From the NCBI RefSeq assembly GCF_000166415.1, contig NC_014654.1, positions 310,001 through 374,000 on the forward strand: DNA of 64,000 nt, in the 5' to 3' direction. Below, in pieces: positions 4,631 to 44,575 of the stretch (position 1 is its first letter; the number at the start of each line of letters is the position of its first letter). The notes under the pieces were generated by a model. The model was not told the origin of the DNA, ran no database searches, and saw nothing but the letters and a program-made list of their open reading frames with translations. A program made the translations under genes and the position numbers. Source of the stretch: Halanaerobium hydrogeniformans. GTDB taxonomy: Bacteria; Bacillota; Halanaerobiia; Halanaerobiales; Halanaerobiaceae.

Positions 4631-4637
4631 AATCAAC

Positions 4638-7035: not shown

Positions 7036-7114
7036 TAATTTTTCACCTCCATCCTACTATAATTATATCATACATATGTTTGCTTGTAAAAGAAAAAATG
7101 GAGGTTTGATCTTT

Positions 7115-7235
7115 ATGAATAGAGACTTAAATAACAATTATCATTCTGTTTATAGTCTACAATATCATTATTGTATCTTCTGGTGGTGCTACTATTGAGA
7201 CAATTAAAAAGTATATTGAAAATAAGAATAAATAG
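7115..7235 (+). pseudogene. tnpA: TnpA Y1 transposase, internally deleted (copy 1)
   Basis: The N-terminus MNRDLNNNYHSVYSLQYH is typical of the IS200 Y1 transposase and follows a good GGAGG site. The next bases jump, in another frame, to VSSGGATIETIKKYIENKNK and stop, which matches the family C-terminus. About 100 residues, including the HUH motif and catalytic Tyr, are missing. The same deletion is present in copy 2, so neither element can transpose on its own TnpA. Confidence 0.82.
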
Positions 7236-7299
7236 CCAATTCATCTCCAGCCAATGCATAGCTTGGATGGAGTTTTCTTGGCAATTTTAGATAAAAAAT

Positions 7300-7395
7300 T
7301 TGAGTTTTAAATATAAAATAATTGCTCTTGTGCTTACAATCATCATAATTCTAACTGTGACATTATTCAGGGCTATTATTATAGCAAACCTTTAG
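7300..7395 (+). pseudogene. possible membrane-anchor remnant of a lost sensor gene
   Basis: A 31-codon open stretch beginning SFKYKIIALVLTIIIILTVT reads like the N-terminal membrane helix of a sensor or cyclase, then stops. It starts just outside the left end of the IS. Coding-like text in other frames follows to about 7500 (for example DITKSSELANNLCRELKIRN). I read this as debris of a disrupted signalling gene; the call is weak. Apart from it, 7236-7507 holds only the IS left end and the ribosome site of the next gene. Confidence 0.35.
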
Positions 7396-7507
7396 CAGCA
7401 GAAAAGATAATTAAGAATATGAAGATTCAAGGATATTACAAAAAGCAGTGAACTGGCAAATAATCTTTGCAGAGAACTAAAAATAAGAAATTGTAGAGGA
7501 GATAACC

Positions 7508-8332
7508 ATGGCTAATATTTTAATAATTGATGATGCTGCACTGATAAGGAAAAGGATGAAAAATATTTTGCTCTATGATGATCACGAAGTATTTGAACTC
7601 GATACCGGCAAATCTATTAGAAATAATTCTTTTTCAGAAGAATTTAGTTTAGATGATATCGATGTAATATTTTTAGATATTTATCTTAAAGATGAAAATG
7701 GTTTCGATATACTGAAATATTTGAGCAAAAATAATCCTGATATCGATGTTATAATTGTTAGTGGTGAAAATAAAATAAGTACTGTCACAAAAGCAGTCGA
7801 ATTGGGTGCTAAAGATTTTTTAGCTAAACCCTTTGACAATCAAATGATACTAAAAAAATTAGAAAAGATCCTTGATAAAAAGGCTATCAGCAAAAGCAAA
7901 AAAAGTCTGGTTGAAGATTTAAATAATGAATTAAGCTCATTTAATACCGACCTAAATCTTGAGTTAAATAGATCTTTAAGATCAGGTTTGGCTTTATCAA
8001 TTATAAAAGTTGATTTTCACAACATAAGCCAAAATGACACTTTTTTAAAAATAAAAAATGATATCACAACCAGCATTAGAGATATAGATAGAGTATATTT
8101 TGTTGATCATAAAGAATTATGTTTTTTGCTTCCATTAACCGATAAAGAAGGCAGAAAAGTTTTTCGTAAAAAATTAGAAAATACAATTTTAGAAAAAGAT
8201 GTTTTAATTCAGTATATTACCTTTCCTGCTGATATTATTGGAGAAGAATCGTTAGAGTTAGATTTTTCCCAGCAAAATGATTACAAAAAAGTGATTTTAA
8301 ATAAGTTGGAGATTAATTTTGATGACAAATAA
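7508..8332 (+). CDS. response regulator, receiver plus degenerate GGDEF-like domain
   Basis: A 274-aa two-component output protein. The receiver domain (1-120) has the acidic pair in IIDDAA, a phospho-acceptor Asp57 in IFLDIYL and the conserved Lys107 in LAKPF. Residues 150-270 resemble a GGDEF fold (RDIDRVYFVDHKELCFLLP aligns with the usual R..D..R.GGDEF..LLP pattern), but the GGDEF loop is replaced by DHKEL, so no cyclase activity is expected. A role as c-di-GMP or GTP sensor, or as a scaffold, is possible. Its last codons lie just before the HD-GYP gene, so the two are probably cotranscribed. No cognate kinase is present in the window. Confidence 0.8.
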   Translation: MANILIIDDAALIRKRMKNILLYDDHEVFELDTGKSIRNNSFSEEFSLDDIDVIFLDIYLKDENGFDILKYLSKNNPDIDVIIVSGENKISTVTKAVELGAKDFLAKPFDNQMILKKLEKILDKKAISKSKKSLVEDLNNELSSFNTDLNLELNRSLRSGLALSIIKVDFHNISQNDTFLKIKNDITTSIRDIDRVYFVDHKELCFLLPLTDKEGRKVFRKKLENTILEKDVLIQYITFPADIIGEESLELDFSQQNDYKKVILNKLEINFDDK

Positions 8333-8345
8333 AAGGTGGTTTGAG

Positions 8346-10439
8346 ATGAATAAAGTAGAATATAATAGAGATATTCCAGTTGCAACCCAGGCTAAGTGGC
8401 AGAAAATTTTAAATATACTTGTTAAAACAGCAGATAGTTCAGATGCTTTAATCACCAGGTTTGACCCCCCATTTCTTGATGTTTTTAAAGCGAGTGAGAA
8501 TATTGAGAATATATTTAAAGAAGGTATGAGAGTTAAAGTATCAGGGCATTATTGTTATGATGTTATTAAAAATGATAAGAAAATTATGATTGTAAATGCT
8601 TTAGAAAATAAAAAATGGAAGGATTATACTGATGCTCAATCTGGTTTTAATGCCTATCTAGGATATCCTTTGAAATGGCCTGATGGCAAAATATTCGGTA
8701 CGCTTTGTATCCATTATAAAAAAGCACATAGTTTTTCTGAGCAAACTCAAGAGGTTATGGGGGAATTTAAAGAACTTATAGAGTCTCAACTTGAGATTAT
8801 CGATAAAAATAAAAAAAATGAAGTATTTCAATTAATTCACAATAATATAAAACAAGGAGTATGTTTACACAAATTAATTTACAAAGATGATAAAGCAGTA
8901 GATTATAAGATAATGAACGCTAACCCTGCTTATGAAAAAATATTGGGTATTCCCTTAAAAAAAGCAAAAGGTTCTTTAGGGTCAGAGATTTATAAAAATG
9001 ATAAGGCACCATATCTTAAAACTTATTCCCAGGTTGCGGAGACAGGTGAATCGCTAACTATTGAAAAATATTTTTCTCCTCTGAATAGATATTTTAATAT
9101 CACTGTTACTTCTCCAGAAAAAGGAAAATTTATCACCCTGTTTGAAGATATTACAGAAAGGAAAGAGAAAGAAGAAAAAATTAGTGAACAAAAAGAACAG
9201 CTTTCTGTTTCTTTTGAGCAGCTAAGCGCTTATAATGAAGAAGTTATGGCTATGAATGAAGAGTTAGAGCAATCTTTTGAAGAAGTAAATTTACTTAATC
9301 AAAGATTTGTGAATATGATTGAGCTTGTATCTAATATGGGAGACAAAACATTGCTCAGTAAAAAAGAATTCTTTTCTGATTTACTAAAAAAAGCTATAGA
9401 GATAATTCCAGAAGCTGATTATGGAAAATTATGCATAATAAATGATCAGGGCAAATGCCAATTTATAGATGCAGTTGGGCATGATATAAAAGCTCTGGCA
9501 AAAATAGCTTTTGATAAAAATTTGCTGTTTAATATTGAGAGTAAAGATATAAATGAGTCTCAAGGTTATTTTTTTAATTTAGATATGATGGAATCAGATA
9601 AAAAAGAACTCTTTTTGAAAGCATTAAAACCGATTAAAAGTTCTTTATATATAAATATTGTGATCGATGAGCAAACTTTCGGTCGAATCGGTCTTGATAT
9701 TAAAAATAAAAGCAGCTTAGATTTTAGTGATACAACTAAAAAAGTTTTAAAATCATTTTCAACTTTAGCTTCTTCTTTTTTCGCTTTTAAAAGATTCGAT
9801 GATTTACAGACTAATTTCACTAAAGAATTATTAACTTCAATTATAAAAATCATGGAAATGTATGATCTTTATACTAAGGGTCATTCAGAAAATGTAGCAA
9901 AGTTAGCTTCAGCAATAGCTGGAGAGATGAAGTTGTCTAAAAAAGCAATCAAAGATACTTACTGGGCAGGGTTGGTCCACGATATAGGTAAATTACTTAT
10001 TCCCCTTAATATTATTAATAAACAGGAAAAATTAACCGATCAAGAATATGAATTAATAAAAAAGCATCCAGTCTGGGGAAATAAGGCTTTAAGCAGTTCT
10101 AAAATATTAAAACCAATTGCTTATTTTATTCTGCATCATCATGAGAGATGGGATGGCAGAGGTTATCCTGAAGGGCTTGAAGAAAATGAGATTCCTTTAA
10201 TTTCACAAATTTTAGCAGTTGCAGACGCCTGGGATGCTATGTTATCTAAAAGAGCCTATCGTCAGTCATTAAGTTTTGAAGAGGCATTAGGGGAAATAAA
10301 AAAGAACAAAGAAACCCAATTTTCTCCTCAAGTCGTAGATGCATTTGTGAAAATTCTTGAAGATGATAAAATCGAAACTCTTCAACAAGATGTTTTAGAT
10401 AATGCAATTAATAAATCTAAAAATAGTGTTTTCTTTTAA
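8346..10439 (+). CDS. GAF-PAS-GAF-HD-GYP cyclic di-GMP phosphodiesterase
   Basis: A 697-aa protein that probably hydrolyses cyclic di-GMP. Order: GAF domain (about 5-150, with GHYCYD and LGYPLKWPDG), PAS domain (about 155-275, ending FEDITERK), coiled coil (about 275-325), a second GAF-like domain (about 330-480), and an HD-GYP domain (about 490-680). HDIGK lies at about residue 545 and HHHERWDGRGYP at about 597, matching the metal-binding HD-GYP consensus. The ATG at 8346 follows AGGTGG; earlier in-frame codons overlap the upstream gene. With the GGDEF gene upstream it forms a synthesis/breakdown pair, and the two PAS domains are alike, suggesting related inputs. Confidence 0.88.
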   Translation: MNKVEYNRDIPVATQAKWQKILNILVKTADSSDALITRFDPPFLDVFKASENIENIFKEGMRVKVSGHYCYDVIKNDKKIMIVNALENKKWKDYTDAQSGFNAYLGYPLKWPDGKIFGTLCIHYKKAHSFSEQTQEVMGEFKELIESQLEIIDKNKKNEVFQLIHNNIKQGVCLHKLIYKDDKAVDYKIMNANPAYEKILGIPLKKAKGSLGSEIYKNDKAPYLKTYSQVAETGESLTIEKYFSPLNRYFNITVTSPEKGKFITLFEDITERKEKEEKISEQKEQLSVSFEQLSAYNEEVMAMNEELEQSFEEVNLLNQRFVNMIELVSNMGDKTLLSKKEFFSDLLKKAIEIIPEADYGKLCIINDQGKCQFIDAVGHDIKALAKIAFDKNLLFNIESKDINESQGYFFNLDMMESDKKELFLKALKPIKSSLYINIVIDEQTFGRIGLDIKNKSSLDFSDTTKKVLKSFSTLASSFFAFKRFDDLQTNFTKELLTSIIKIMEMYDLYTKGHSENVAKLASAIAGEMKLSKKAIKDTYWAGLVHDIGKLLIPLNIINKQEKLTDQEYELIKKHPVWGNKALSSSKILKPIAYFILHHHERWDGRGYPEGLEENEIPLISQILAVADAWDAMLSKRAYRQSLSFEEALGEIKKNKETQFSPQVVDAFVKILEDDKIETLQQDVLDNAINKSKNSVFF

Positions 10440-10555
10440 AAAGCAGAAGTTGGTATATTAAGCTTGGATGAAAGATCCAATATAATTAGGGCAGATAATT
10501 ATTCTATTATTCATCAAAATAAAGAGATTAAAGTCATTTTTGCTATTTACATTTT

Positions 10556-10883
10556 ATGTTTAGAGATATTATAATAATATTGAAATATCAGAATAAATTT
10601 GAAGAAGATTTTATCTGGATTTCTGCCTGGATATTAGGGAATAAGCTGGTTAAAGACAAAATATGTGATGAAGAAATAGAACAAAAAATATTTGATGGAT
10701 ATGGAAGTTTAAAAAACAATAAAATAACAGAAGCTTTTGGTTCCTGGCTTAAGTCAGTTCATGGAAATAATTTCTGATCCTGACCATGAAGATCATGAGA
10801 TGATGACTGAGTGGGCTGAGAGTCAGGGTTTTAAAGAATATGACTCTGAGCAAATAAAAAAGAATTTAAGATTTTATCTATAA
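10556..10883 (+). pseudogene. broken hypothetical gene fragment
   Basis: Two adjacent frames read as one acidic protein. 10556-10777 encodes FEEDFIWISAWILGNK through LKSVHGNNF, and 10761-10883 encodes SDPDHEDHEMMTEWAESQGF through LRFYL, with a one-base frame change near 10765-10780. No ribosome site or upstream frame continuation supports the N-terminus (a stop lies just upstream), so the gene also looks 5'-truncated. The family is not recognised. The stretch 10440-10555 holds nothing that I can identify. Confidence 0.5.
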
Positions 10884-10913
10884 TATTAGAAATTGTTAAG
10901 GAGTGGTAGCAGG

Positions 10914-11459
10914 ATGGATAAAATAAAACTATCAAAAACGCTTTCCTATATTCTTCGCCACCATCCAGAATCATTTGATTTGAAATTGGCTGCTGATGCT
11001 TCAGTAGAAACAGATGAGCTTTTAAATTCTCTAAAAAATAAATTTAAAAAAATAACTAAAGACGACCTGATCAAAGTGGTAGAAGCTGATCCTAAAGGTC
11101 GTTTTAGCTTTTTAGATGAGCAAAAAAGGATTAGAGCAAACTATGGTCACAGTATAGAAGGTGTCAATCCAGAATATGAGGCGGTTAAACCACCTGAGTT
11201 CCTTTATCATGGCACAACACCTGAGGCGAAAAATAAGATCTTAGCTGAAGGAATTAAACCGATGGGTAGAAATTATGTCCATCTAAGCGTAAATATTAAA
11301 GAGGCAAAAAAGGTTGCTCAGAGAAGAACAAATAATGAGCTAATATTTAAAATCAGGGCCTTAAAAGCCTATCAAGCTGGACAGGAGTTTTACAAAACTG
11401 CTGAAAATATATATTTGACCGATCAGATTGCTGCAAAATACCTCTTTTTTATAAAATAA
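10914..11459 (+). CDS. kptA: RNA 2'-phosphotransferase (KptA/Tpt1)
   Basis: A 181-aa protein of full family length. It moves an internal RNA 2'-phosphate to NAD+, giving ADP-ribose 1'',2''-cyclic phosphate. In eukaryotes this finishes tRNA splicing; the bacterial role is unsettled. The family signatures are present in order: LSKTLSYILRHHPE at the N-terminus, RIRANYGHS in the middle, YHGTT, and VHLS in the C-terminal NAD-binding part. The start at ATG 10914 is chosen because the protein begins MDKIKLSKTL as in homologues. No RNA ligase or splicing partner is nearby, so the context gives no help. Confidence 0.9.
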   Translation: MDKIKLSKTLSYILRHHPESFDLKLAADASVETDELLNSLKNKFKKITKDDLIKVVEADPKGRFSFLDEQKRIRANYGHSIEGVNPEYEAVKPPEFLYHGTTPEAKNKILAEGIKPMGRNYVHLSVNIKEAKKVAQRRTNNELIFKIRALKAYQAGQEFYKTAENIYLTDQIAAKYLFFIK

Positions 11460-11569
11460 TAAATGGAGATAGCAAAGGTTAATATATTTTTTTATAGAAT
11501 ATGTTTTATATAGCAGATTTTTGTGAAATAGATTAATCTTAAAAAGTAAAAGGCAGGAAGGTGAAAAAA

Positions 11570-12190
11570 ATGGCCACAAAAACAGAACTTCTGCTCATCA
11601 GACATGGTGAAACAGACTACAACAAAAACTCTATTATCCAGGGCCAGACGGATACAGAGCTTAATGAAAGCGGCATCATAAAAGCTGAAGAAACAGCTGA
11701 ATTCCTAAAAAATTATGAATTTGATCATATTTACAGCAGTGATCTTAAGCGGGCTAAAAAGACTGCATCATTTATTGCAGATAAGCTTGAGCTTGAGATC
11801 AAAGAAAGTAAAAAGATAAGAGAAATAGATTTTGGTGATTGGGAGGGCTTAAAACTCGAAGAAATAGTTGATCAATATCCTGATGATATGGAAGCCTGGA
11901 GAATTGATCCGCTGAACAATGGAGCACCTGGAGGAGAGAATATCACCCAGTTTGCAGCCAGAATAAAATCTTTTTTTGATCAGCTTTTAGAAAAACACAG
12001 GGGAGAAAAACTGATAGTTGTCACCCATGGTGGTGTGATAAAATTATATTTGCGAGAAGTTTTAGCAGTACAATCTAAAAGTTTTAAACAGTTTCAGGTA
12101 GATAATACATCGCTTACCGAAATTAAATTTTATGATGATGATGCTATTTTAAGCAAACTGAACTACGTGGTTGGAGAAAATTTTAAATAA
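11570..12190 (+). CDS. histidine phosphatase family protein (phosphoglycerate mutase-like)
   Basis: A 206-aa cytosolic phosphatase or mutase of the CobC/GpmB branch. The phospho-acceptor motif LIRHGETD is at residues 8-15 and the second catalytic His lies in VTHGGV near residue 152. YSSDLKRAKKTA is the typical third motif. ATG 11570 follows GGAAGG with good spacing; GTG 11561 is too close. The gene lies 14 bases before ilvE and is probably cotranscribed. The substrate cannot be decided; a CobC-type alpha-ribazole phosphatase is possible, but no B12-synthesis genes are in the window. Confidence 0.82.
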   Translation: MATKTELLLIRHGETDYNKNSIIQGQTDTELNESGIIKAEETAEFLKNYEFDHIYSSDLKRAKKTASFIADKLELEIKESKKIREIDFGDWEGLKLEEIVDQYPDDMEAWRIDPLNNGAPGGENITQFAARIKSFFDQLLEKHRGEKLIVVTHGGVIKLYLREVLAVQSKSFKQFQVDNTSLTEIKFYDDDAILSKLNYVVGENFK

Positions 12191-33330: not shown

Positions 33331-34758
33331 TTAAACTAATCGCTTTGAGTAAATTTGATCCCGATTGCTATAAGCTTTTAAAAGAACAGGATTTGCACTT
33401 TTAAAAAGAAAAACGAATACCATAATTCCGGTAACTCCTTCTGCGAATAATGTAGTTAACCAAATGCCGGTCGCTCCCCAAAATATCGGAAATACAGTTA
33501 AACCAATTATAATCAATATTAGCCCTCTTAAAAGTGCTATCGTTAAGGATTTTAATGCCTGTTCCAGGGCTGTGAAATAGGCAGAGCCAAGAATTCCTAT
33601 AGACATAAACAGAAATGACCAGCTTATATAACCTGCTACTTGAATAGCTAAAGCTAATGTTTCTGGATCATGTGGGATAAAGATTCCAAGCAAGTTCTCA
33701 GTCTGAAAACGAATAAGCAGAAAGAAGAACAAAGAAATTATGAAACCTGTACCCATAACTCTTTTCAATGTTCCCCTTACTCTTTCATGGCAACCTCCAC
33801 CATGGTTATAACTTAAAATAGGTTGAACACCAGTTGCCATTCCCATAAGAATCTGGGATGCAAGAGCTAGAAAATACTGGATTATAACAAATGCTGCCAG
33901 CCCTGATGTGCCAGCATATTCAATAATTTGACGATTATATAATAGAGTTGTAACTCCAACAGCCAAAGCACTAAACAATTCAGAAGATCCGTTGGCAGAA
34001 ATTCCTACTATTTCAGACCAACATCCCTTGGGAGATCCTATTTTCAGACCCTGATGATTTTTCAAGGTCTTACGAATAAAATATGCTAAAAAAATAGATG
34101 CCCCAAGTGATTGGGAAATTCCTGTTGCAATTGCAGCTCCACCAAGTCCCAGGTTTAATGGGAACAAAAATAAATAGTCCAATCCTATATTAAGCAAAGA
34201 TGTGAAAATCATTACTCCGGTTGCAAGCTTTGGACGACCATCAGTTCTAACGGAGCGTTCCAGAATGAAAAGTAGAATAATCGGTGCAAAAAATAAATAA
34301 AAGCCTTTTAAATATTCTCCTGCATAGGCTCCCAGCTCAGCGTTAGTGCCAAGAAAATTGAGAATTCTATCAAATCCCAAGTGAATGCTAAGACTTGTAA
34401 ATAATCCAATAACAATACCTAAAATGAGCACAACACTGAACACACCTCTTGCTTTAGAAATCTTTCCTTTTCCCAGAAGAACTGCAATTTTTGCATTTCC
34501 ACCAACACCTACCATTGTAGCCAAACCGATGGCAAGTGCCAAAACAGGAAATAACAGGTTCACTGAGGCCATAGGTCCTGGCCCCAAACGTCTGCCAATT
34601 AAAATACCGTCCACAATTCCATAGAGACCCATCATTACCATCGCAGCCATAGAAGGTAGAAGATTTTTTGTAATTAATTTAGCTAAAGGTTCAGTCAGAA
34701 AGCTTTCTCTTACAGGATCATAATTAGTTTTTATTTCTTCGAATTTATTTTTTTTCAA
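33331..34758 (-). CDS. MATE-family efflux transporter
   Basis: A 475-aa inner-membrane protein with about 12 transmembrane segments, exporting drugs or metabolites in exchange for Na+ or H+. The N-terminal pattern (GLYGIVDGILIGRRLGPGP, then MVGVGGNAKIAVLLGKGK) and the mid-protein PILSYNHGGG fit MATE proteins of the MepA-like branch. It starts at TTG, eight bases after GGAGG. A TGAATGAAT palindrome lies between it and the tetR gene upstream, and a matching one precedes tetR, so this regulator very likely controls the pump. Confidence 0.88.
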   Translation of the reverse strand: MKKNKFEEIKTNYDPVRESFLTEPLAKLITKNLLPSMAAMVMMGLYGIVDGILIGRRLGPGPMASVNLLFPVLALAIGLATMVGVGGNAKIAVLLGKGKISKARGVFSVVLILGIVIGLFTSLSIHLGFDRILNFLGTNAELGAYAGEYLKGFYLFFAPIILLFILERSVRTDGRPKLATGVMIFTSLLNIGLDYLFLFPLNLGLGGAAIATGISQSLGASIFLAYFIRKTLKNHQGLKIGSPKGCWSEIVGISANGSSELFSALAVGVTTLLYNRQIIEYAGTSGLAAFVIIQYFLALASQILMGMATGVQPILSYNHGGGCHERVRGTLKRVMGTGFIISLFFFLLIRFQTENLLGIFIPHDPETLALAIQVAGYISWSFLFMSIGILGSAYFTALEQALKSLTIALLRGLILIIIGLTVFPIFWGATGIWLTTLFAEGVTGIMVFVFLFKSANPVLLKAYSNRDQIYSKRLV

Positions 34759-34781
34759 CTTTTTTCCTCCTTACATTTTAG

Positions 34782-34807
34782 TGAATGAATATTATTTTAT
34801 TCATTCA
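34782..34807. promoter_or_regulatory. operator between tetR and the MATE gene
   Basis: TGAATGAAT-N8-ATTCATTCA, a 9-bp perfect inverted repeat with spacer ATTATTTT. It matches the palindrome in front of tetR (35431-35460). It gives the pump gene its own TetR-controlled promoter or roadblock. Confidence 0.78.
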
Positions 34808-34829
34808 TATAAGTTTTTAAAAAAAGGCC

Positions 34830-35408
34830 TTATGGTTCAAGACCCCTGACAATGAATTTTATGAGATCTTCAAGGAGTTCTGGAAAATATTCCTCTCCAA
34901 TTTCATCTTTGTGAAGATCAATAAATGCGACAGAGTTGAATAAGGCCAGAATATACTCTTTATCCCAATGCTGATCTAACTTTCCTTCAGATTGCCATTT
35001 TCCTACTATTTCTAAAAAGAAAGAATAAAATGCATCTCCCTCATTGACCTCATCTACATAAGGCTCTCCCACTTTTTTAGTGATAGTTTTAAAATCTTCT
35101 TTTTTATACCACTCAACTAATATTGGGTTGTTTTTCATTCCTTCATGCAGCTTTTTAATAAGCTCTTTAACTACAGTAGAGATATCTCCGTCAAAATTGA
35201 TAGAATTTTTAATACGTTTTTTCAGTGCCTGATCTTCTTTGACAAAAACATCCATGAATACTTCTTCTTTTGAAGAGTAAAAGTTGTAAAAGCTTCCAAC
35301 TGCAATCCCAACTTCAGCTGTAATTTCTGATATATTGGTTTTTTTAAATCCTTTTTCAATAAATAACTCTCTTGCTGCATTAAAAATTTCCTGTTTCGTT
35401 GTTTGCAT
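34830..35408 (-). CDS. TetR-family repressor of the MATE pump
   Basis: A 192-aa regulator. The N-terminal HTH (IFNAARELFIEKGFKKTNIS, then VGSFYNFYSSKEEVF) is typical of TetR; the remaining two-thirds should bind an inducer. It lies directly upstream of the MATE gene on the same strand, and both are preceded by the same palindrome. Autorepression and repression of the pump, relieved by a pump substrate, is the expected scheme. The start ATG follows GGAGG at a suitable distance. Confidence 0.88.
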   Translation of the reverse strand: MQTTKQEIFNAARELFIEKGFKKTNISEITAEVGIAVGSFYNFYSSKEEVFMDVFVKEDQALKKRIKNSINFDGDISTVVKELIKKLHEGMKNNPILVEWYKKEDFKTITKKVGEPYVDEVNEGDAFYSFFLEIVGKWQSEGKLDQHWDKEYILALFNSVAFIDLHKDEIGEEYFPELLEDLIKFIVRGLEP

Positions 35409-35510: not shown

Positions 35511-35864
35511 TTAGAAATTATTTCTTAGAGCTGCTATTAAAAGAAGTAGAGAACCTAATATTAAAAAGATCCAGCCGTATTCATAAACAAGCAGGTCCAC
35601 ATTTTCACCAGCATTTTCTCTGAGCTGGACAAAAGTATAGGTGTTGAAAGCTAAAGCACTTAAAGCGGTGATCACTAGATGTTTGTAATATTTTTTTATA
35701 GTTAAAAATAGGGAAATAAGAGCCAGCATAAAAATAAAGAAAGCTCCACCTAAAGCATCTCTGAAATATGTAATTTGTCCGATCATCGGAGCAGTAACTA
35801 AAGGAGTAAAAATACCAATAATCAATGTAACTATACCCAGTAAAGAAATATATAATTTCTTCAA
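35511..35864 (-). CDS. small four-helix membrane protein
   Basis: A 117-aa inner-membrane protein with four predicted helices (near LYISLLGIVTLIIGIF, GGAFFIFMLALISLFL, LVITALSALAFNTYTF and GWIFLILGSLLLLIAAL). The start is set at TTG 35864, since AAGGAT lies at good spacing and residues further upstream look non-coding. The family is not recognised. It lies between two tetR genes and is transcribed away from the right-hand one; no functional link is shown. Confidence 0.6.
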   Translation of the reverse strand: MKKLYISLLGIVTLIIGIFTPLVTAPMIGQITYFRDALGGAFFIFMLALISLFLTIKKYYKHLVITALSALAFNTYTFVQLRENAGENVDLLVYEYGWIFLILGSLLLLIAALRNNF

Positions 35865-36002
35865 ATTATCATCCTTTCTTTCACTATAAAAACAGTATAT
35901 TATATTTAACTGTAACTTGCAATTGAGAGCAAATTTAACTCTTATTATATATCTCAAGTAAAAGCTCCAGATATAATTTTCAGAAAAATTACTCAATAAC
36001 TC

Positions 36003-36064
36003 TTGACAGCCTTAAATAAATATAATATAATGTGACTACAAAGTCATATGACCTAATAGTCATA
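36003..36064 (+). promoter_or_regulatory. consensus promoter with operator repeats before tetR
   Basis: TTGACA (36003-36008), a 17-base spacer and TATAAT (36026-36031) form a perfect sigma-A promoter. Directly downstream are overlapping palindromes, TGACTACAAAGTCA (36034-36047) and GTCATATGAC (36043-36052), with a further AGTCAT (36059-36064). This fits negative autoregulation by the TetR protein encoded next. Confidence 0.78.
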
Positions 36065-36087
36065 AAATATAAATAGAGGTGATAGAG

Positions 36088-36732
36088 GTGCCAAAACAAA
36101 CTTTTTTTAATCTGCCTTCAAAAAAGAGGGAGAGAATTTTGCAGGCCGGAATGGAAGAGTTTTCTGCTTATCCATATTTAAAAAGCAGCACAAATAGAAT
36201 TATTGAAAATGCAGATATATCCAAGGGAAGTTTTTATCAATATTTTGATAACAAAAAAGATCTTTATAAATATATTATCAAAAAAGCTACTGATGAAAAA
36301 ATAGAATTTTTAAATGAGCAGCTGGTAGATTTTGAAAAGCAGAGTTTTTTTGATTATTTAAGAGAATTATTTATTGGTGGAATTAAATTTAAAAAACAGT
36401 ACCCCTTACTTTCTAAAATCGGAGATAGATTATTAACAGGTGATAATGAGAGTTTAAAAAAAGAAGTTTATGATGAAAGCAGACCTAAGAGCAATCAGTT
36501 CTTTTTAAATATACTTAAAAAGGCTGCTGTAAGGGGAGAATTAGACCCGGAAATTGATATCGAAATGACCGCATATATGCTGACAGATTTTTCAATAAGT
36601 ATAATTGACTATTATTTTAAACAGTATGAACCAGAAAATAATGACAGGGTAGTAGAAGAACTAGAACAAATTCTTGAATATGTAGATAAAATGATCTATA
36701 TTATGAAAAATGGAATAGCAAAAAAGTGTTAA
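36088..36732 (+). CDS. TetR-family regulator of the export cluster
   Basis: A 214-aa regulator. It begins VPKQTFFNLPSKKRERILQA, and the HTH includes NRIIENADISKGSFYQYFDN. The GTG at 36088 is used, being well spaced from GAGGTGA. The protein lies 13 bases before the ABC ATPase gene and in the same orientation, so it is the likely local regulator of the export cluster, acting on the palindromes that overlap its own promoter. The N-terminal style is close to the YcfQ/AcrR-like 'FFNL..EKR.RI' subgroup. Confidence 0.87.
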   Translation: MPKQTFFNLPSKKRERILQAGMEEFSAYPYLKSSTNRIIENADISKGSFYQYFDNKKDLYKYIIKKATDEKIEFLNEQLVDFEKQSFFDYLRELFIGGIKFKKQYPLLSKIGDRLLTGDNESLKKEVYDESRPKSNQFFLNILKKAAVRGELDPEIDIEMTAYMLTDFSISIIDYYFKQYEPENNDRVVEELEQILEYVDKMIYIMKNGIAKKC

Positions 36733-36745
36733 GGGGTGTTTAAAA

Positions 36746-37458
36746 ATGGCTCTGGTTAAATTAATCGAATTAGAAAAAATATATCAGCAGGGTAAAATTG
36801 CCGTCCCGGCTTTAAGGGGAATAGATATGGAAATAGAGTCTGGAGAGTTTACAACTATTTTTGGTCCTTCTGGTTCAGGAAAAACAACCCTGCTTAATAT
36901 GATCGGCTGTCTGGATAAGTCTACTTCGGGAGAGATTATCTTTGCCGGTAATTCCATTAATCAGCTAAATAGAAACGAGTTAGCTGATATAAGACGCTAT
37001 AATCTAGGGTTTATCTTTCAAAGCTATAACCTTATTCCGGTTTTAACTGCTTTTGAAAATGTAGAATTTGCGATACGATTGATCGATAAACATACGAAAA
37101 AAGAGCGCCGCGAAAAAGTAATGCATATTTTAGATGAGGTTGGCCTGGCAGATATGGCTTATAGAAAGCCAAATGAATTATCAGGTGGACAAAAACAGAG
37201 GGTAGCGATCGCCAGAGCTTTAATCAAAGAACCAAAATTGGTTCTAGCAGATGAGCCAACTGCCAACCTGGATTCTGAAACCAGTGAAGAGGTGCTTGAG
37301 ATAATGAAAAAAATGAATAAAGAATTAAATACTACCTTTATTTTTCTACTCATGATCCTCAGGTTATGGAATATGCCAAAAGATTGGTAGAAATAAAAGA
37401 TGGTAAGATCACTAAAGATCAGATGACAGCAGGTGAACATGAAGAAGGGAGCAGATAA
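36746..37458 (+). pseudogene. MacB/LolD-type ABC ATPase with a frameshift
   Basis: The frame from 36746 reads as a normal LolD/MacB ATPase: Walker A GPSGSGKTT, Q-loop IFQSYNLIPV, signature LSGGQKQR and Walker B LVLADEPTANLD. At the T-run 37341-37345 it drops into another frame and stops at 37390. One base over, the expected end continues: FSTHDPQVMEYAKRLVEI (with the H-loop His) to a stop at 37456-37458, one base before the next start. A single lost T would explain it. It may be a real inactivation, programmed slippage or a sequencing error; the rest of the operon is intact. Confidence 0.8.
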
Positions 37459-38703
37459 ATGTTTTTGATTAAGCTGGCCTTAAAGAATCTTAAGCGCAGA
37501 AAAAAAAGAACTTTTATTATGGCAGTCATTTTAGCAACTGCAGTTATATCTTTTCTGCTTTTAGACTCCCTTATGATAGGAATGATGGATTTATCATTTG
37601 GAAATGTCATTGACTTTGAAACACCCCATATTGAGATAGCTCAGAAAGAGTTTTTTGCAGAAATAGATGAGGATGAAGAACCACCTTTAGAACAGGCTTT
37701 TATTCCTGAACGATCAATGCTTGATGAATTAAGAGAGGTTGAAGGCTTTAGAGCATTAACTTCTGTGATAGACTTTTCAGCAACATTTATTTCAGGCAGA
37801 TATGATTTTCCAGTCCTGGTTAGGGTAATAGATGAAGAAAGTTTTAAAGATGTATTTCGTCATCATGAACATTTAGAAAAAGGAGAATTTATATCTACTG
37901 GGGATTCAGGAGTTGTGATAGGTAAAGATTTAGCAGAGTTTTTTAACTTAGATATTGGAGATTATTATACCCTTAGATTTAGAGATAAAGATAATTACTT
38001 TAGTACAATAGAGGGTGAGATAAGAGGTATAATTTCAACTCCTCATCCAGAAGTTAATCAAAGAACAGTTCTGATCGCCAGGGATCAGGCAGTAGAAAGA
38101 CTGGCAGTTGAAGAAAATAGTGTGACCCAGTTGATGCTGAGAATGGATAATCGTGATCTGGCTTTAGATAAAACTGATCTATTAGCAGCCAGTTTTGCTG
38201 ATACAGACTTTGAAGTTCGTTCCTATAGAGATGCTTCTGAGATGCTTGTAGCGATTGAGGCCTGGGGCTATTTAGAAACATATTTTATTTTAGCACTCAT
38301 TTTATTGGTAGGAGCCATCGGTATAATAAATGCCATTGTATTATCTGCCTTAGAAAGGGTAGGGGAAATCGGAATGATGAAAGCGATGGGATTAAAAGAA
38401 AAAGAGATTGTAAAAATATTTATTATTGAAGCAGGTGGAATCGGAGTAATAGGTGCACTGTTAGGCTGTCTTGTTGGCGGGATATTAAATGCTATTTTTG
38501 TTCAATATGGTATCGCTCTAGAAGGTTTATGGGATGCTGAAGCCCTTGGTTTACCTTTAACTGGAAGACTTTATGGAAGCTGGAGTTTATCTTCTTTTAT
38601 TTTTATATTTATCTTTGTAATTATAATAACCGTGATTGCCAGTATTATACCTTCATATTGGGCAGCACGCAAAGATCCAGCAGATGCCATTCATCATAAA
38701 TAA
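37459..38703 (+). CDS. MacB/FtsX-family ABC permease 1
   Basis: A 414-aa inner-membrane permease of the LolC/E-MacB type. One N-terminal helix (TFIMAVILATAVISFLLLDS), a large extracytoplasmic domain (about 45-270), and three C-terminal helices in the FtsX domain (about 275-410). ALERVGEIGMMKAMGLKEKE is the usual coupling region, and the protein ends YWAARKDPADAIHHK, as typical. It starts immediately after the ATPase frame and works with the second permease. Confidence 0.88.
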   Translation: MFLIKLALKNLKRRKKRTFIMAVILATAVISFLLLDSLMIGMMDLSFGNVIDFETPHIEIAQKEFFAEIDEDEEPPLEQAFIPERSMLDELREVEGFRALTSVIDFSATFISGRYDFPVLVRVIDEESFKDVFRHHEHLEKGEFISTGDSGVVIGKDLAEFFNLDIGDYYTLRFRDKDNYFSTIEGEIRGIISTPHPEVNQRTVLIARDQAVERLAVEENSVTQLMLRMDNRDLALDKTDLLAASFADTDFEVRSYRDASEMLVAIEAWGYLETYFILALILLVGAIGIINAIVLSALERVGEIGMMKAMGLKEKEIVKIFIIEAGGIGVIGALLGCLVGGILNAIFVQYGIALEGLWDAEALGLPLTGRLYGSWSLSSFIFIFIFVIIITVIASIIPSYWAARKDPADAIHHK

Positions 38704-38717
38704 CATAAGTTCTGGAG

Positions 38718-39986
38718 GTGAGAATAATCTATTTATTAAAAGTTGCCTGGCGTAATCTAAGCCGTAATAAGGTGAGAACCTTTGTTTCAGTTCTGGCAAT
38801 TACTGCAGTTGTGATGATCGTAATCTTTGCCAGAGGCTTGATGCTGGGGTTTACCGAATCAAATTTTCAAACATATATAGATAATAGTTTTGGCCATGTT
38901 AGGATAACAGAAGAGGAGTATCAAATTAGAGAAGCTTTATTACCTCTTGAATATACTGTAGATGGTTTTGCTGGAGCGGGAAAAAGTGAGATGATCTCTG
39001 AAATCAAGACCCTTGATCGGGTAGAACATGTTCTGCCAAGGATTCGTTTTGGAGCTATGGCCAGTATTGATGATAGATTAATCAGGATGTCTGGAGTGGG
39101 AATTGATACTGCTGCGGAAAATGAATATGGGGCCTTAAAAGCAGATCTTAAAGAAGGAAGAATGCCTGAATCAGATAATGAAATATATGTAGGTAGTGGA
39201 TTAATGGAAAAATTAAATGCTGATTTAGGTGATAGGGTAACTTTTTCCTTTGCTGATGCCTATCAATCATTAAGGGGGCGCAGCTTTAAGATTGTAGGTG
39301 TAAGAGAATCGGGAGTCGTACAGTTAGATGACAATTTCTTTTATCTACCCTTAAGCACAGCTCAGGATATGTTGTGGATGGAAAATGAAGCAACTGAATT
39401 ACTGGTCTTTGCTGCTGATGCTCAAGAGGCAGAACGGCTGCAAACTGATATAAATACACTTCTAAGCGAAAAAAATGCTGAAAACTATACATCGGTCATC
39501 TGGAATAAGGCTGATCCATTAATAGAAATATATAATGAAGTAGGTAATTTGATGAATCTAGTTTATGTGTTATTTATATTGCTTGGTACAATAGTAGTGA
39601 CCAGCAGTTTAAATATGATTATTAGAGAAAGAACTTCTGAAATTGGGATGATGGCTGCCCTTGGTTTAAAAGAAAAAGAAATAATGAAAATATTTGTTTA
39701 TGAAGGTTCTTTTATGGGAGTAATCGGCAGTTTGATGGGTGTGATTGGTGGTGGAATAATAACATTTTATTATTCTATTGAAGGTATATATGTAGATGTA
39801 TTTGCAGATGCTATGAAAGAATTAGATGTCCTTGTAGAACCTGTTTTTTATCTTATTTTTAATTTTGAGAATTTGCTTATAAGTTTTGTGCTTGGAGTAG
39901 TTGTGGTTACTTTAGCCTGTCTGTTCCCTGCCTATAAAGCTGCAAAAATGGACCCTGTAGATGCATTACATTATATTGATGAATAA
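38718..39986 (+). CDS. MacB/FtsX-family ABC permease 2
   Basis: A 422-aa permease with the same plan as the previous gene: N-terminal helix (VSVLAITAVVMIVIFARGL), extracytoplasmic domain, C-terminal FtsX domain with RERTSEIGMMAALGLKEKE, ending AAKMDPVDALHYIDE. The two form a LolCE-like heterodimer. Start codon is unclear: GTG 38718 overlaps the GGAGG site, while ATA 38724 or ATC 38727 would be spaced normally, so a rare start codon is possible. It probably moves a lipid, lipoprotein or similar hydrophobic cargo. Confidence 0.87.
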   Translation: MRIIYLLKVAWRNLSRNKVRTFVSVLAITAVVMIVIFARGLMLGFTESNFQTYIDNSFGHVRITEEEYQIREALLPLEYTVDGFAGAGKSEMISEIKTLDRVEHVLPRIRFGAMASIDDRLIRMSGVGIDTAAENEYGALKADLKEGRMPESDNEIYVGSGLMEKLNADLGDRVTFSFADAYQSLRGRSFKIVGVRESGVVQLDDNFFYLPLSTAQDMLWMENEATELLVFAADAQEAERLQTDINTLLSEKNAENYTSVIWNKADPLIEIYNEVGNLMNLVYVLFILLGTIVVTSSLNMIIRERTSEIGMMAALGLKEKEIMKIFVYEGSFMGVIGSLMGVIGGGIITFYYSIEGIYVDVFADAMKELDVLVEPVFYLIFNFENLLISFVLGVVVVTLACLFPAYKAAKMDPVDALHYIDE

Positions 39987-40003
39987 TTAAGGAGGGTTTC
40001 AAT

Positions 40004-40771
40004 GTGATTAAAAAATTAAATTTATATCTTTTTATTTCTCTAATTCTATTTTTGCCATTGCTCTTTAGTTTTTCTTTTAATGTAGCAGCTGAAGAGCTAA
40101 GCGCTGAGCAAATAATGCAGAGAGTTGATGAAAATGAATATATAGAATCAGGTAGAATGGAAGCCGAAATGATAATTGAAGACCGTGGTAGAGAGATCGT
40201 CAAAGAGATGTTTTCCTTTATTGAAGGTCATAATAATTTAACCGAATTTACTAATCCCAGGGATAGGGGTACTAGATACCTGAAATTAGATGATGACCTC
40301 TGGATGTATTTTCCGGATGCTGAAGATTTGGTCAGGATTTCTGGTCATATGATGAGAGAAGGTATGATGGGCAGTGATTTTTCCTATGAGGATGCACTTG
40401 AATCACAGAGGCTGAGCGAACTATATAATTTTGAATTAGAAGGTATAGAAGAGATCAATTCCAGAGAAGCATATATTATTTCCGGTCTTGCTCGTGAAGA
40501 TAAAGATGTCTCTTATTATGAGAGGAAGATCTGGGTTGACAAAGAACGTTTTGTAATCCTGCGTGATGAATATTACAGCACTGGTGGAAGGATGATTAAA
40601 GAATTAGATGTAAAAGAGTTAAAAGAATTTGAATCCGGACGCTGGTTCCCGGTCATAGCTGTTATGAATGATAAGTTAAAAGAAGAAAGTCAGACTACTT
40701 TAAAAGTATTAGAATTAGAATTTGATTATGATATTCCAGAAGGTAAAATTTCTCTAGAAGAACTACAGTGA
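40004..40771 (+). CDS. LolA-like outer-membrane lipoprotein-sorting protein
   Basis: A 255-aa exported protein of the COG2834 type. The signal peptide (LYLFISLILFLPLLFSFSF) ends near NVAAEE without a lipobox. The mature part has the expected carrier pattern: LSAEQIMQRVDENEY, FTNPRDRGTRYLKLDDDLWM and YYERKIWVDKERFVILRDEY. Such proteins carry a lipid-like cargo across the periplasm. It follows the two permeases and precedes a beta-barrel, suggesting a trans-envelope path. GTG 40004 follows AAGGAGG. Confidence 0.85.
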   Translation: MIKKLNLYLFISLILFLPLLFSFSFNVAAEELSAEQIMQRVDENEYIESGRMEAEMIIEDRGREIVKEMFSFIEGHNNLTEFTNPRDRGTRYLKLDDDLWMYFPDAEDLVRISGHMMREGMMGSDFSYEDALESQRLSELYNFELEGIEEINSREAYIISGLAREDKDVSYYERKIWVDKERFVILRDEYYSTGGRMIKELDVKELKEFESGRWFPVIAVMNDKLKEESQTTLKVLELEFDYDIPEGKISLEELQ

Positions 40772-40782
40772 GAGGTGTTGAA

Positions 40783-41925
40783 ATGTTTTTTAAATTAAAA
40801 AACAATTATAAATTGCTTTTGACACTCTTTTTAATAATAACTTTTCTCTTCTTTGCAGATAAAACAGCAGCAGTTGAGCTGGGAGGTAAATTAGAACTTG
40901 AAAGCTCTTTGTTTTATGATGATTCTGTAGAACTTTCTCTCAGCGGCAGGAGTGAAGTAGAATTTTTCTTTGCTGATTATTCTAATTTTGAACCCCGCTT
41001 TGTTCTGCAGTCTTCACTTGATGATGATGGGCAGGCTGAACTTGAGATAAAATATTTATATCTTCGTCATCGAAAGGATAATAAGAATTTAACCATCGGT
41101 CGTCAGCCGGTTTCCTGGTCATATGGAGCTATAATTAATCTCCTGGATTATGGCCTTGGAATAGATGATCTGGCCAGCGATACTATCGAGCCAGGTATTG
41201 ATGGCTTTCGCTATCATCATTCTTTAGGTCAGGGTAGGAGTTTACAGCTGGTTACTTCTTTTTCTGAACTTAATGTTGATGATTGGGAAGAACTTGGTTA
41301 TGGTGCCAGATTGCGACTGCCTGGATCTGGCTATGATTTAAGCTTTCAGGCCAGTTATCAACCGATTTCAGACATAGAAAATGAAAATGATGAAAATAAC
41401 GATAATTTGTTGAGAGCAGGGATGAGCTATAATAGAGACATAAGAGATCTGGGAACTTACGGCTCACTGGGTTATTTTTCTTCTTCTGATACAGATGATA
41501 TTATGCTCCAATTTGGGATTGATTACAGCTGGATGATCGGTGATCTTAGAAGAAGACAGGTCTTTTTGCAGGCTGAATATTATAGGTTTTTAAGAGATAA
41601 TTTGAGTGCAGCTTATCTAGCAGGGCTGGATATTGGTGGTGCAGAGGAATTAGGTGGAGATAGCAGTACAGCAGAAGGTCTTGCAGCCGCACTATTTGAT
41701 AATAGAGATTTTTTGCTGATTGATCTCTCAGTTCAACTAGATCATTTTTCTAAGCTTGGTGTTATATTTATGGGAGAAAGCCAGGACAATAGAAAGCTTC
41801 TCGGTTCTTATTATACAAGTGAACTAGGGGGAGGCTTTGAAATAAGATTTGACGGAAATCTAGCTAAAAATGAAGAAGATGATTACCTCTATGGAATTTC
41901 TTCAACCCTCAGTTATTATTTTTAA
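40783..41925 (+). CDS. outer-membrane beta-barrel protein (porin-like)
   Basis: A 380-aa protein with a signal peptide (about 1-30, ending KTAAVE) and alternating beta-strand sequence throughout (LELESSLFYDD, AELEIKYLYLRHR, YDLSFQASYQ, VFLQAEYYRF). It ends YGISSTLSYYF; a C-terminal Phe is the usual BAM recognition signal. Conserved strand pair LTIGRQPVSWSYGA resembles alginate/DUF1302-type porins. ATG 40783 follows GAGGTG. It is strong evidence for an outer membrane and probably the exit or receiving partner of the ABC-LolA cluster. Confidence 0.82.
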   Translation: MFFKLKNNYKLLLTLFLIITFLFFADKTAAVELGGKLELESSLFYDDSVELSLSGRSEVEFFFADYSNFEPRFVLQSSLDDDGQAELEIKYLYLRHRKDNKNLTIGRQPVSWSYGAIINLLDYGLGIDDLASDTIEPGIDGFRYHHSLGQGRSLQLVTSFSELNVDDWEELGYGARLRLPGSGYDLSFQASYQPISDIENENDENNDNLLRAGMSYNRDIRDLGTYGSLGYFSSSDTDDIMLQFGIDYSWMIGDLRRRQVFLQAEYYRFLRDNLSAAYLAGLDIGGAEELGGDSSTAEGLAAALFDNRDFLLIDLSVQLDHFSKLGVIFMGESQDNRKLLGSYYTSELGGGFEIRFDGNLAKNEEDDYLYGISSTLSYYF

Positions 41926-41937
41926 TATTGGAACAAA

Positions 41938-41993
41938 AAAGACATTGTCCTTTTGCTCTCCATTCAACTGAAGAGCTTCCGGGCAATGTCTTT
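41938..41993 (-). terminator. terminator for the minus-strand aminopeptidase gene
   Basis: AAAGACATTGTCC (41938-41950) pairs with GGGCAATGTCTTT (about 41981-41993). On the minus strand the stem is followed by TTTTTTT, so it ends the aminopeptidase transcript; it may also slow + strand read-through from the porin gene. Confidence 0.75.
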
Positions 41994-42022
41994 AAATAAA
42001 TTCAAATCTTTAATCATTATTT

Positions 42023-42976
42023 TTAAATTAGATGTTTACCTTTTTCAATTACAGCTTCACCATCTAAATAAAGGTTCGGTTCTAAGATAACTCCATCGAT
42101 GTGGATAGCTGCTTCTACATTTCCACCCATTGAAGCATTATCACCAAAAGCTATGTGAACAGTGCCAAATACCTTTTCTGCTTCAAGCAGGCTGCTTGAA
42201 AGCTGGGCTTCCTCATTCGTTCCAATTCCCAGTTCAGCAATATTGTAGACATTTTCGTCATCGGCAGAACTTAAAAGCTCTCTTATTTCAGCTGCTGCTT
42301 TTCCACCTTCTATTTTTTTTACAAGACCATCCTTGATGGTAACTACAATATCTTCATCCATATCATTAATACCTGCTATAGCACCATCTATGACAAGTGT
42401 GCCATTTGCACTACCTTCAACAGGAGCTGTAAAAGCTTCACCTGCCGGGAGATTGCCGTACTCTCCTTTGTTAACTATAATACCAGTATCTGCTGTAGCT
42501 TTGCGGCCTGCAATAGAAAAGCTGAGTTCTGTTCCCTTTGCAGTAGTGATTTTTACTTCTTTGCTTTGATCTAATTTAGCAGCAAATTTTTTGCTTAAAT
42601 TACTGATTTTATCATAATCTGCTCCAAGGGTTCTGATCATCATATCTTCTGTTATACCTGGCATAGTAGCTATTCGGGCGCCATTTTTACAGGCTTCTAT
42701 TCTGGCCTGGGTATGGGATAAAGATTTAGTTGTTGGAGCTAGAACAACATCTGCATTTTTCATGGCTGCAGCCACAAATTTTGGTGGTTCTTCCCCATGG
42801 GTTGTTCTTTCGATCATTTTGATTAGAGCTGCTTCTGCATTAACTTCCAGGCAGGCCTCTAAAAGGCTTTCTCCCACGGCTACAGATTTTGGATCAACAA
42901 TAACTAAAACATCTTCTCCTTTTTTAATCTGCAGACAATCGTTAACAACCGTTTTACTTGCTTCTTCCACTGACAT
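42023..42976 (-). CDS. aminopeptidase family protein (M29/AmpS-like, COG2309)
   Basis: A 317-aa protein of the thermophilic aminopeptidase fold. The N-terminal half (CLQIKKGEDVLVIVDPKS, then ADVVLAPTTKSLSHTQAR) and C-terminal metal-site region (AELGIGTNEEAQ, HIAFGDNASMGGNVEAAIHI) fit the family; related members are metal-dependent leucyl aminopeptidases or ring-cleaving NicX-like enzymes. It is shorter than classic M29 peptidases (about 400 aa). The left end of IS605 copy 2 lies only about 27 bases upstream of its ATG, so the original promoter has probably been displaced. Confidence 0.78.
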   Translation of the reverse strand: MSVEEASKTVVNDCLQIKKGEDVLVIVDPKSVAVGESLLEACLEVNAEAALIKMIERTTHGEEPPKFVAAAMKNADVVLAPTTKSLSHTQARIEACKNGARIATMPGITEDMMIRTLGADYDKISNLSKKFAAKLDQSKEVKITTAKGTELSFSIAGRKATADTGIIVNKGEYGNLPAGEAFTAPVEGSANGTLVIDGAIAGINDMDEDIVVTIKDGLVKKIEGGKAAAEIRELLSSADDENVYNIAELGIGTNEEAQLSSSLLEAEKVFGTVHIAFGDNASMGGNVEAAIHIDGVILEPNLYLDGEAVIEKGKHLI

Positions 42977-43058
42977 AGAATCTCTCCCTCATTGATTATT
43001 TATCTGAAACTGCCAAGAAAACTCCATCCAAGCTATGCATTGGGTGGAGATGAATTGG

Positions 43059-43257: not shown

Positions 43258-44575
43258 ATGCGATTATCATTTAAATTCAAGCCTAAATTAAGCCATAAGC
43301 AATTAGTAATAATTAATGAATTAGCCTGGCATTGCTCTAAATTATATAATACAGTCAATTATCAGATTAAAAATAATAAAGATGTAAAAGCTGTCTATAC
43401 TGAATTAGAAACTAGATATAAAAATAACTGGCATAATGACTACCTTCACTCCCATAACAGACAACAGGCATTAAAGCAGTTAGCTAAGGACTGGAAAAGT
43501 TTTTTTTATTCTCTCAAAGATTATAAAAAGAATCCTCAAAAATATAAGGGTCAGCCAGGGTCACCTAATTTTAAACATATGAACAGTAATCCCTGTGAAA
43601 TAATTTTTACCAATTTAGCTGTTAGAATTAAAGATAACAAATTACTCTTATCCTTATCTAAAAAGATACAATCTAAATATAATGTGAAGGCTCTTAATTT
43701 TGAGCTGCCTGAAGCAGTTCAAAGCATTATAGATTTAGATGCTGTCCAGCAGATAAAGATTAAGCAGGACCGTATTTCTAAAAGATGGTATCTCTTAATT
43801 ATCTACAAAGTTAAAGAGGCAAAAGAAAGTAAGAAATCTAACATAATGGCAGTTGATCTAGGTCTTGATAATTTGGCTACTTTAACATTTAAAAACAATT
43901 CTGATTGTTATATTATCAATGGTAAAACTATTAAATCCAAAAATTCTTATTTTAATAAAGAAATTGCCAGACTACAAAGCATTAGAATGAGGCAGTTAGC
44001 TACCAGTAAAATTAGAGATACTAAACGAATAAAATATCTGAGATTAAAGAGAAAAAATTATATTAGAGATTATCTCCATAAAGCTAGTTGCAAAATAGTT
44101 GATTTAGCAATTGAAAATCAAGTAGAAACTATTGTAATCGGAGATATAAAAAATATTAAACAATGCAGCAAACTTAAATCTTTTGTCCAAATACCGATTC
44201 AGAGATTAAAAAAATTAATTGAATACAAAGCTAAACTAAAAGGTATCAAAGTTGTTGAAATTGATGAAAGCTATACTTCTGGGTGTACTAAAGCTTTTAA
44301 TTTTAATTACGCAAGGTAAGCTTTAGTATGACCGTATTCGATTTGGCCGCTATTCAGTAGATCTGGAAAAAATAAATAAAAGTAACTATGATAAATCCAG
44401 AAGAATTACTAGAGGTCTCTTTAAAACTAACGCGGGCCTATTAATTAATGCTGATCAGAATGGTAGTTTTAATATACTTCGTAAATATCATAACGATAAA
44501 TGTATTCTCAGACCTATCAAAGAGGCGAGAGATAATGGATTTGTGGACAATCCTTCAAGATTAAGGGTATCCTAA
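43258..44575 (+). pseudogene. tnpB: TnpB RNA-guided nuclease, broken by the same 43-nt insertion (copy 2)
   Basis: The open frame (43258-44319, 353 aa) is about 97% identical to copy 1 and ends at the same stop inside the inverted-repeat segment 44286-44328. The lost C-terminus continues one frame over (44330-44575): KINKSNYDKSRR, RGLFKTN, INADQNGSFNIL and a tail ending LRVS. The RuvC-I Asp (MAVDLGLDNL) is kept, while the RuvC-III Asp is cut off. Copy-specific changes include Pro for Ser and Lys for Arg around CEIIFTNLAVRI. As read, no active nuclease is made. Confidence 0.85.
44286..44328 (+). repeat. 43-nt inverted-repeat insertion in tnpB copy 2
   Basis: TACTAAAGCTT (44286-44296) and AAGCTTTAGTA (44318-44328), perfect 11-bp inverted repeats, with the stop TAA (44317-44319) at the inner edge of the right arm. 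Identical to 5965-6007. Removal restores the downstream frame. Confidence 0.75.

Follow-up and report, generated by a model that had tools for sequence, protein, structure and literature searches.

What does a LolCDE-like transporter do when its genes are accompanied by that of an outer-membrane barrel? The question is raised by a locus of Halanaerobium hydrogeniformans lying in the window analysed here, a stretch of 64,000 nucleotides (NC_014654.1, positions 310,001 to 374,000 of the forward strand). Six genes follow each other head to tail on its + strand, encoding a TetR-family regulator, a LolD-like ATPase of the ATP-binding cassette (ABC) type, two LolC/E-type permeases, a periplasmic carrier of family PF17131 and an outer-membrane barrel; they overlap or are separated by gaps of a few to some tens of bases. 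An earlier note, made from the sequence alone, had described one unit of TetR, ATPase, two FtsX permeases, a COG2834-type carrier and a barrel, and all of these are present, co-directional and nearly touching; the span it gave, 36746-41925, holds the ATPase through the barrel and leaves the TetR gene upstream. The host is taken to be diderm because its genome, a single contig of 2,613,117 bases, encodes an Omp85, the only one (match at 477555-478415), and a monoderm host was set aside on that ground. At a probability of roughly 0.6, the unit is read here as an ATP-driven, inducible system that carries a hydrophobic substrate other than protein, a lipid or something lipid-like, outwards across the envelope, and it is probably not the housekeeping Lol system.

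At the core of the unit, carrier and barrel form a conserved pair. PF17131 occurs in 37 of 38 genomes of the order, with 96 matches in total, and when all 96 neighbourhoods were read, the barrel followed the carrier directly in 80. Across 40 regions opened from a phylum-wide sample, a picked subset of the carrier matches there, a barrel stands immediately after the carrier in 33 of 41 rows. A further set of 80 named loci was kept from 220 confirmed stretches, using a query built from ABC-type carriers that is blind to units driven by resistance-nodulation-division (RND) pumps; with adjacency defined as a gap of less than 700 bases, the barrel is adjacent in 67, a permease in 68 and both in 57. 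A bystander role of the barrel is ruled out by its adjacency to the carrier in the first and third of these sets. The complete route from inner to outer membrane that had been proposed, with the barrel as a true partner, is thereby borne out, and the unlinking of barrel and LolA-like genes from the permeases in relatives, which would have spoken against it, is not what the relatives show.

The gene order TetR, ATPase, permease, permease, carrier, barrel (T-A-P-P-L-B) recurs, whole or truncated, across families and phyla, which rules out chance clustering. Having been proposed for Halanaerobiales, the unit proves to be distributed widely among diderm bacteria: carrier, permease and barrel also occur together in other diderm Bacillota, Atribacterota, WOR-3, Elusimicrobia, Spirochaetes, Sumerlaeota and Aerophobetes, and, among annotated or self-labelled records, in Persicobacter (Bacteroidota; T-B-A-P-P-L) and Vibrio campbellii (Gammaproteobacteria; L-P-P-A-B). 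Other Gram-negative phyla were sampled through 12 plasmid-collection records, 6 of them opened, which gives no frequencies. Within the phylum sample, PF17131 scores over its family cut-off in 32 of 149 genomes, 30 of the 32 with Omp85, which is itself present in 36 of the 149. At a threshold of 70 bits, picked after the scores had been seen, the figure is 29 of 29 and the contingency table reads 29/7/0/113 (Fisher p 1.3e-24), a value that cannot be taken to count independent events among related genomes. Over the 41 of 80 loci in which all four parts are full-length, carrier, barrel, permease 2 and ATPase show pairwise distances that correlate with one another at r 0.885-0.92, and none of 2000 permutations reaches any of these values.

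Predicted folds give both core components a more precise identity. The AlphaFold model of the carrier (predicted local distance difference test, pLDDT, 93.2) has its closest folds in 4z48, 3buu, 3bk5 and 9tp6, the last being Porphyromonas gingivalis LolA3, at TMq 0.73-0.77, LolA3-type folds reaching 0.74-0.77, versus about 0.4 for canonical LolA; the carrier is thus of the LolA3/PF17131 type and not a canonical LolA. The barrel model (pLDDT 85.8, predicted TM-score 0.80) comprises 18 strands plus a signal helix. In VIA-align, Occ/OprD porins (Z 24.2, root-mean-square deviation 3.2, 299 residues aligned) and the alginate exporter AlgE (Z 23.3, deviation 3.5, 304 aligned) are tied as its nearest folds, a likeness between a model and known structures that points to a channel and says nothing on its substrate. 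Pfam gives the barrel almost no direct match (Porin_O_P 9e-4, below cut-off), and its profile has no direct match among PDB sequences. A TolC- or Omp85-type barrel was considered and ruled out, as neither family is matched (no PF01103) and, by fold, Occ/OprD, AlgE and other porin-type barrels are its neighbours.

The nature of the cargo is suggested by a second engine. In the same genome, the carrier and barrel families of the window unit are also paired with an HAE3-type RND pump, in a MarR-MMPL/HAE3-PF17131(+DUF1329)-DUF1302 cluster (L004; G000:C1:941000-957000, 4196-9668) whose pump matches MMPL at 1.7e-49 and reaches 240 bits with the HAE3 model, under the cut-off of 351.9. The gene after this cluster reads as serine hydroxymethyltransferase, an arrangement that recurs in most of the Halanaerobium genomes surveyed. 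Order-wide, the nearest pump to the 96 carriers is an ABC transporter in 36 cases and an RND/MMPL protein in 50, with none within 3.5 kb in 10 (contig ends included). The carrier tree, built from 94 of the 96 proteins after exclusion of those under 215 residues, divides into an ABC-linked side of 39 rows and an RND-linked side of 55 (SH-aLRT 100 for the split); the exceptions are L016, L067 and L070, ABC-linked yet on the RND side, and L069 forms a very long branch. The ABC-linked and RND-linked barrels are homologous (profile-profile probability 99.9, E 4.8e-35, 342 columns), and Pfam recognises DUF1302 at E <= 0.01 in 30 of 43 RND-linked barrels versus 1 of 52 ABC-linked ones.

The RND version also occurs outside the order. 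Annotated or self-labelled records hold MMPL-carrier-DUF1302 in Prevotella nigrescens and DUF1302-MMPL-carrier in Haliovirga. In Acinetobacter baumannii (L226, 2070-5720), a 1216-residue open reading frame fuses a START-like, lipid-binding Polyketide_cyc2 domain, MMPL and PF17131, and the gene of a DUF1302 barrel comes next; pump and carrier are here a single chain that includes a lipid-binding domain. On a 23.9-kb Pseudoalteromonas plasmid (L222), MMPL and PF17131 genes lie beside gamma-mobile-trio recombination genes, a context implying that mobile elements can carry the RND version.

A close relative of known function is AmeABCD of Castellaniella defragrans, described in the relevant sections of PMC6394551 as an RND/HAE3 exporter of apolar monoterpenes whose deletion reduces monoterpene tolerance. 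As in the window unit, a LolA-superfamily periplasmic protein and an outer-membrane barrel, in AmeABCD of the DUF1302 class, are encoded together with an inner-membrane pump, and the system is inducible, as presumed for the window unit; it differs in its RND rather than ABC pump, its DUF1329 rather than PF17131 carrier, and an additional periplasmic protein, AmeC. No additional co-directional gene lies within the window unit, and hence no AmeC-like (COG4447) protein. The host genome has a close analogue of AmeABCD in the L004 cluster, and the window unit is best read as the sister, powered by an ABC pump, of exporters of the RND/HAE3-carrier-DUF1302 kind to which AmeABCD belongs. Because the same carrier and barrel families accompany an AmeABCD-like, HAE3-type pump, a greasy substrate is likely for the ABC version as well. 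Of the lipid or glycolipid export once suggested, a hydrophobic non-lipoprotein substrate is thus the better supported part; nothing specific points to a glycolipid.

Inducibility fits the TetR control and a conserved paired operator. A strict pair of palindromes precedes TetR in 8 of 20 scanned TetR-ATPase clusters, the window cluster counted; two further clusters carry single or differently spaced palindromes, and TGAAT variants occur in several others. The promoter scan returned 40 matches against 29.3 expected, and hence only the 12/12 site, backed by the conserved operators, was used. The window TetR is a probable autorepressor of the operon: it would occupy the palindrome pair next to the promoter and come off as substrate builds up. 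ABC pump, shuttle carrier and outer-membrane channel would then hand a greasy molecule outwards, with the ATPase probably supplied in trans by an intact copy in a second cluster.

Several observations weigh against an exporter of this kind. Permease 2 is nearest in the PDB to LolF (3.1e-19) and LolE (7.2e-15), with LolC also near and MacB following at 4.2e-7; LolF/LolE-like is therefore a more apt label than the MacB-like of the earlier note, and the nearest relatives of the permeases are true lipoprotein extractors. No other LolC/E-type permease (E <= 0.001) and no PF03548 LolA (0 matches at E <= 0.1) were found in the genome, which leaves nothing else found there that could sort lipoproteins. 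No lipid-synthesis gene lies beside the unit. The window barrel, like all but one of the ABC-linked barrels in its alignment, is not called DUF1302 by Pfam, and 16 of the 96 order-wide carriers lack a recognised barrel, some of these standing near another aromatic-ended open reading frame or Omp85 and others near nothing. The distance correlation was computed without a species-tree control and may include shared host ancestry. Lastly, the window ATPase is frameshifted, and this copy may be decaying.

The frameshift deserves particular attention. The ATPase that had been reported is present and LolD-like, but its frame is broken: the in-frame reading of the window gene (FRAMESHIFTED) stops at 37390 with an aberrant tail, and its H-loop lies out of frame, the in-frame part retaining the Walker A, signature and Walker B motifs. 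The run at 37341-37345 holds five T, against six in the second ABC cluster of the genome (L005; G000:C1:2575000-2591000, 6085-11711), whose ATPase protein is intact and identical to that of the window over the shared part; over a shared coding tract of about 680 bases, the two genes are one substitution and one T apart. It is possible, if rather unlikely, that the ATPase is made after all, either because the frameshift arose from an error of sequencing or because -1 slippage on the T run bypasses it; this would be compatible with any of the readings considered here. The site falls within a short T run in a tract that elsewhere shares about 99% identity with the intact copy, and the remaining frame is undamaged through the stop at 37458; five T are, however, short for slippage.

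Another alternative, considered unlikely, is that the window holds a decaying paralogue without function, leaving the second cluster and the RND cluster as the ones that matter. Besides the frameshift, this view can draw on the orthologous place in a sister species (L053 in G012), which matches window positions 35521-35938 and 37444-43005 at about 80-85% DNA identity with merely some 115 bases between the two parts: TetR and ATPase are missing, a permease gene comes directly next, and the orthologue consists of permeases, carrier and barrel only. The same comparison speaks against decay, since permeases, carrier and barrel have stayed open over about 4.5 kb at 84.8% DNA identity, with the carriers 89% and the barrels 85% identical, and since the sister species retains these genes with no ATPase adjacent, implying use of an ATPase in trans. 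An intact ATPase copy exists in the genome, and the second cluster is damaged too, its TetR being largely deleted and the signal-peptide region of its barrel out of frame. The damage is complementary: TetR and barrel are intact in the window, the ATPase in L005. Its absence in the sister species and its near-identity to L005 mark the head cassette as a recent copy from that second cluster, spliced into, or re-gained in, the window lineage; the window carrier groups with that of L053 and next with carriers from a different family of the order, and not with the L005 clade. Permeases, carrier and barrel of the window thus appear to have been, or to be, served by an ATPase encoded elsewhere, and the pump probably borrows the intact one of the second cluster.

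A further alternative is that lipoprotein sorting by Lol (LolCDE plus LolA) is what the unit does in Halanaerobiales, the barrel being a LolB-substitute receptor or insertase, or a bystander. Such a reading has been published, in section 14 of PMC5007114 and in a figure legend of PMC11784454; section 14 reports carrier, permeases and ATPase and no barrel, and from this gene content the cluster meant would be of the window type. The likeness to LolCDE/LolDF-LolA-LolB is real, comprising a LolC/E-type permease pair, a separate LolD-like ATPase and a LolA-fold carrier, and it is strengthened by the PDB neighbours of permease 2 and by the lack of any other LolA or LolC/E noted above. Among models of defence systems, ATPase and permeases match only generic ATPase and LolE-like ones. 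A Lol system is nevertheless improbable here, given the other carrier family and its fold, a dedicated barrel, TetR control, multiple copies and a patchy distribution. Equivalog cut-offs are missed throughout: LolC/E-model matches in the genome are confined to the four permeases of the two clusters, the window pair at 105 and 153.5 bits and the L005 pair at 117 and 130.4, all far below 362.45, and the intact L005 ATPase reaches 239.7 bits with the LolD equivalog, below 307.75. LolB (PF03550) also has 0 matches in the genome, a weak test for a protein of beta- and gamma-proteobacterial Lol that is missing from most phyla. Three Halanaerobium genomes (G010, G013, G018; 99% complete, one of them a single contig) hold the RND-type carrier only, so that the ABC unit, unlike a housekeeping Lol system, is not present throughout the clade. 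The porin-type barrel would also be too narrow for a folded lipoprotein. Finally, LolA3 of Bacteroidota (9tp6), among the closest solved relatives of the window carrier, is not the main lipoprotein carrier according to the pertinent passages of PMC13103446 and PMC11885536: the P. gingivalis protein, without the conserved Arg, binds LolB weakly (PMC13103446), and deletion of lolA3 in Flavobacterium johnsoniae leaves lipoprotein-dependent gliding and type 9 secretion unaffected (PMC11885536).

The least probable rival, considered very unlikely, casts the unit as an efflux pump for drugs or solvents after the fashion of MacAB-TolC, in which the carrier would serve as adaptor and the barrel would be the exit duct: TetR control and the MacB_PCD domain of permease 2 agree with it, and TetR-led efflux operons are common, but the unit encodes no MacA/HlyD adaptor, its barrel is not of the outer-membrane efflux protein (OEP)/TolC class, TolC-type OEPs lying elsewhere in the genome, and a shuttle of LolA fold does not form a tube as such an adaptor does.

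In the literature searched, partly represented by excerpts, no description of an ABC-PF17131-DUF1302-like unit was met. The nearest is the Borrelia BBJ23-29 cluster (PMC13078400, 2026), for which the relevant sections arrive at a similar idea by computation only. It likewise unites a type VII ABC transporter, a LolA-like carrier and an outer-membrane barrel; it differs in an Omp85-type barrel, a single, proposedly homodimeric permease and two tetratricopeptide-repeat proteins, and no TetR is among the seven genes listed. At L070, L131 and L136, PF17131 carriers have an Omp85 match within a few kb, some with ABC or RND pumps, an arrangement reminiscent of the Borrelia cluster.

Should the window unit export hydrophobes by means of its ABC pump, a Lol pathway may be missing altogether from these diderm Firmicutes, and the placement of lipids and lipoproteins in their outer membrane becomes a testable question. 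Since two published sources take such genes as evidence for Lol in Halanaerobiales (PMC5007114 and PMC11784454, in the parts cited above), that label needs re-testing. Under the exporter reading, PF17131 and DUF1302, two large families of which few functions are known, gain a proposed role, and the same carrier and channel families are seen to work with two pumps unrelated to each other. It is tempting to hypothesize, though the odds are somewhat less than even, that a LolA3-type carrier and a DUF1302-class barrel form one chassis, fitted with either a LolCDE-type ABC or an RND/HAE3 engine in several diderm phyla, of which the "LolCDE-LolA" of diderm Firmicutes would be one arm; lipoprotein sorting would then perhaps have arisen later, as a specialised form of a lipid exporter.

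Table 1. Features of the exporter-like unit, in window coordinates.
Feature	Position	Strand	Basis
Sigma-70 promoter TTGACA-17-TATAAT, putatively driving the TetR-led operon	36003..36031	+	12/12 consensus match, top of 40 matches; consensus match only, start site not mapped
Head cassette (promoter, operators, TetR, ATPase), recently copied	36003..37426	+	98.9%/726 bp and 93.4%/227 bp to L005
TetR operator half 1, 14-bp palindrome TGACTACAAAGTCA	36033..36046	.	palindrome pair seen before TetR
TetR operator half 2, 14-bp palindrome TGACCTAATAGTCA	36049..36062	.	palindrome pair seen before TetR
TetR-family regulator	36079..36732, likely start GTG 36088	+	PF00440 4.9e-11, PF21256 9.5e-8
LolD-like ATPase, frameshifted copy	36746..37390	+	ABC_tran 5.6e-36; best NCBIfam LolD 1e-64
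Out-of-frame ATPase remainder (H-loop STHD and C-terminus)	37345..37458	+	
LolC/E-type permease 1 (FtsX)	37459..38703	+	PF02687 5.9e-18; TIGR02212 105 bits (cut-off 362.45)
LolC/E-type permease 2 (MacB_PCD and FtsX)	38718..39986	+	TIGR02212 153.5 bits (cut-off 362.45)
Periplasmic LolA3-type carrier (PF17131)	40004..40771	+	PF17131 1.3e-48; N-terminal signal helix; no lipobox cysteine seen
18-strand outer-membrane barrel	40768..41925, likely start ATG 40783	+	aromatic C-terminus SYYF; remote DUF1302 relative

The surroundings of the unit hold further genes. Upstream, on the opposite strand, lie a MATE transporter and its own TetR regulator (window 33331-35408), separated from the unit by a small membrane-protein-like open reading frame (35511-35996, - strand). 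Downstream, at 43258-44319, a TnpB-like open reading frame matches Cas12f/Cas12u models, its C-terminus seemingly truncated or frameshifted.

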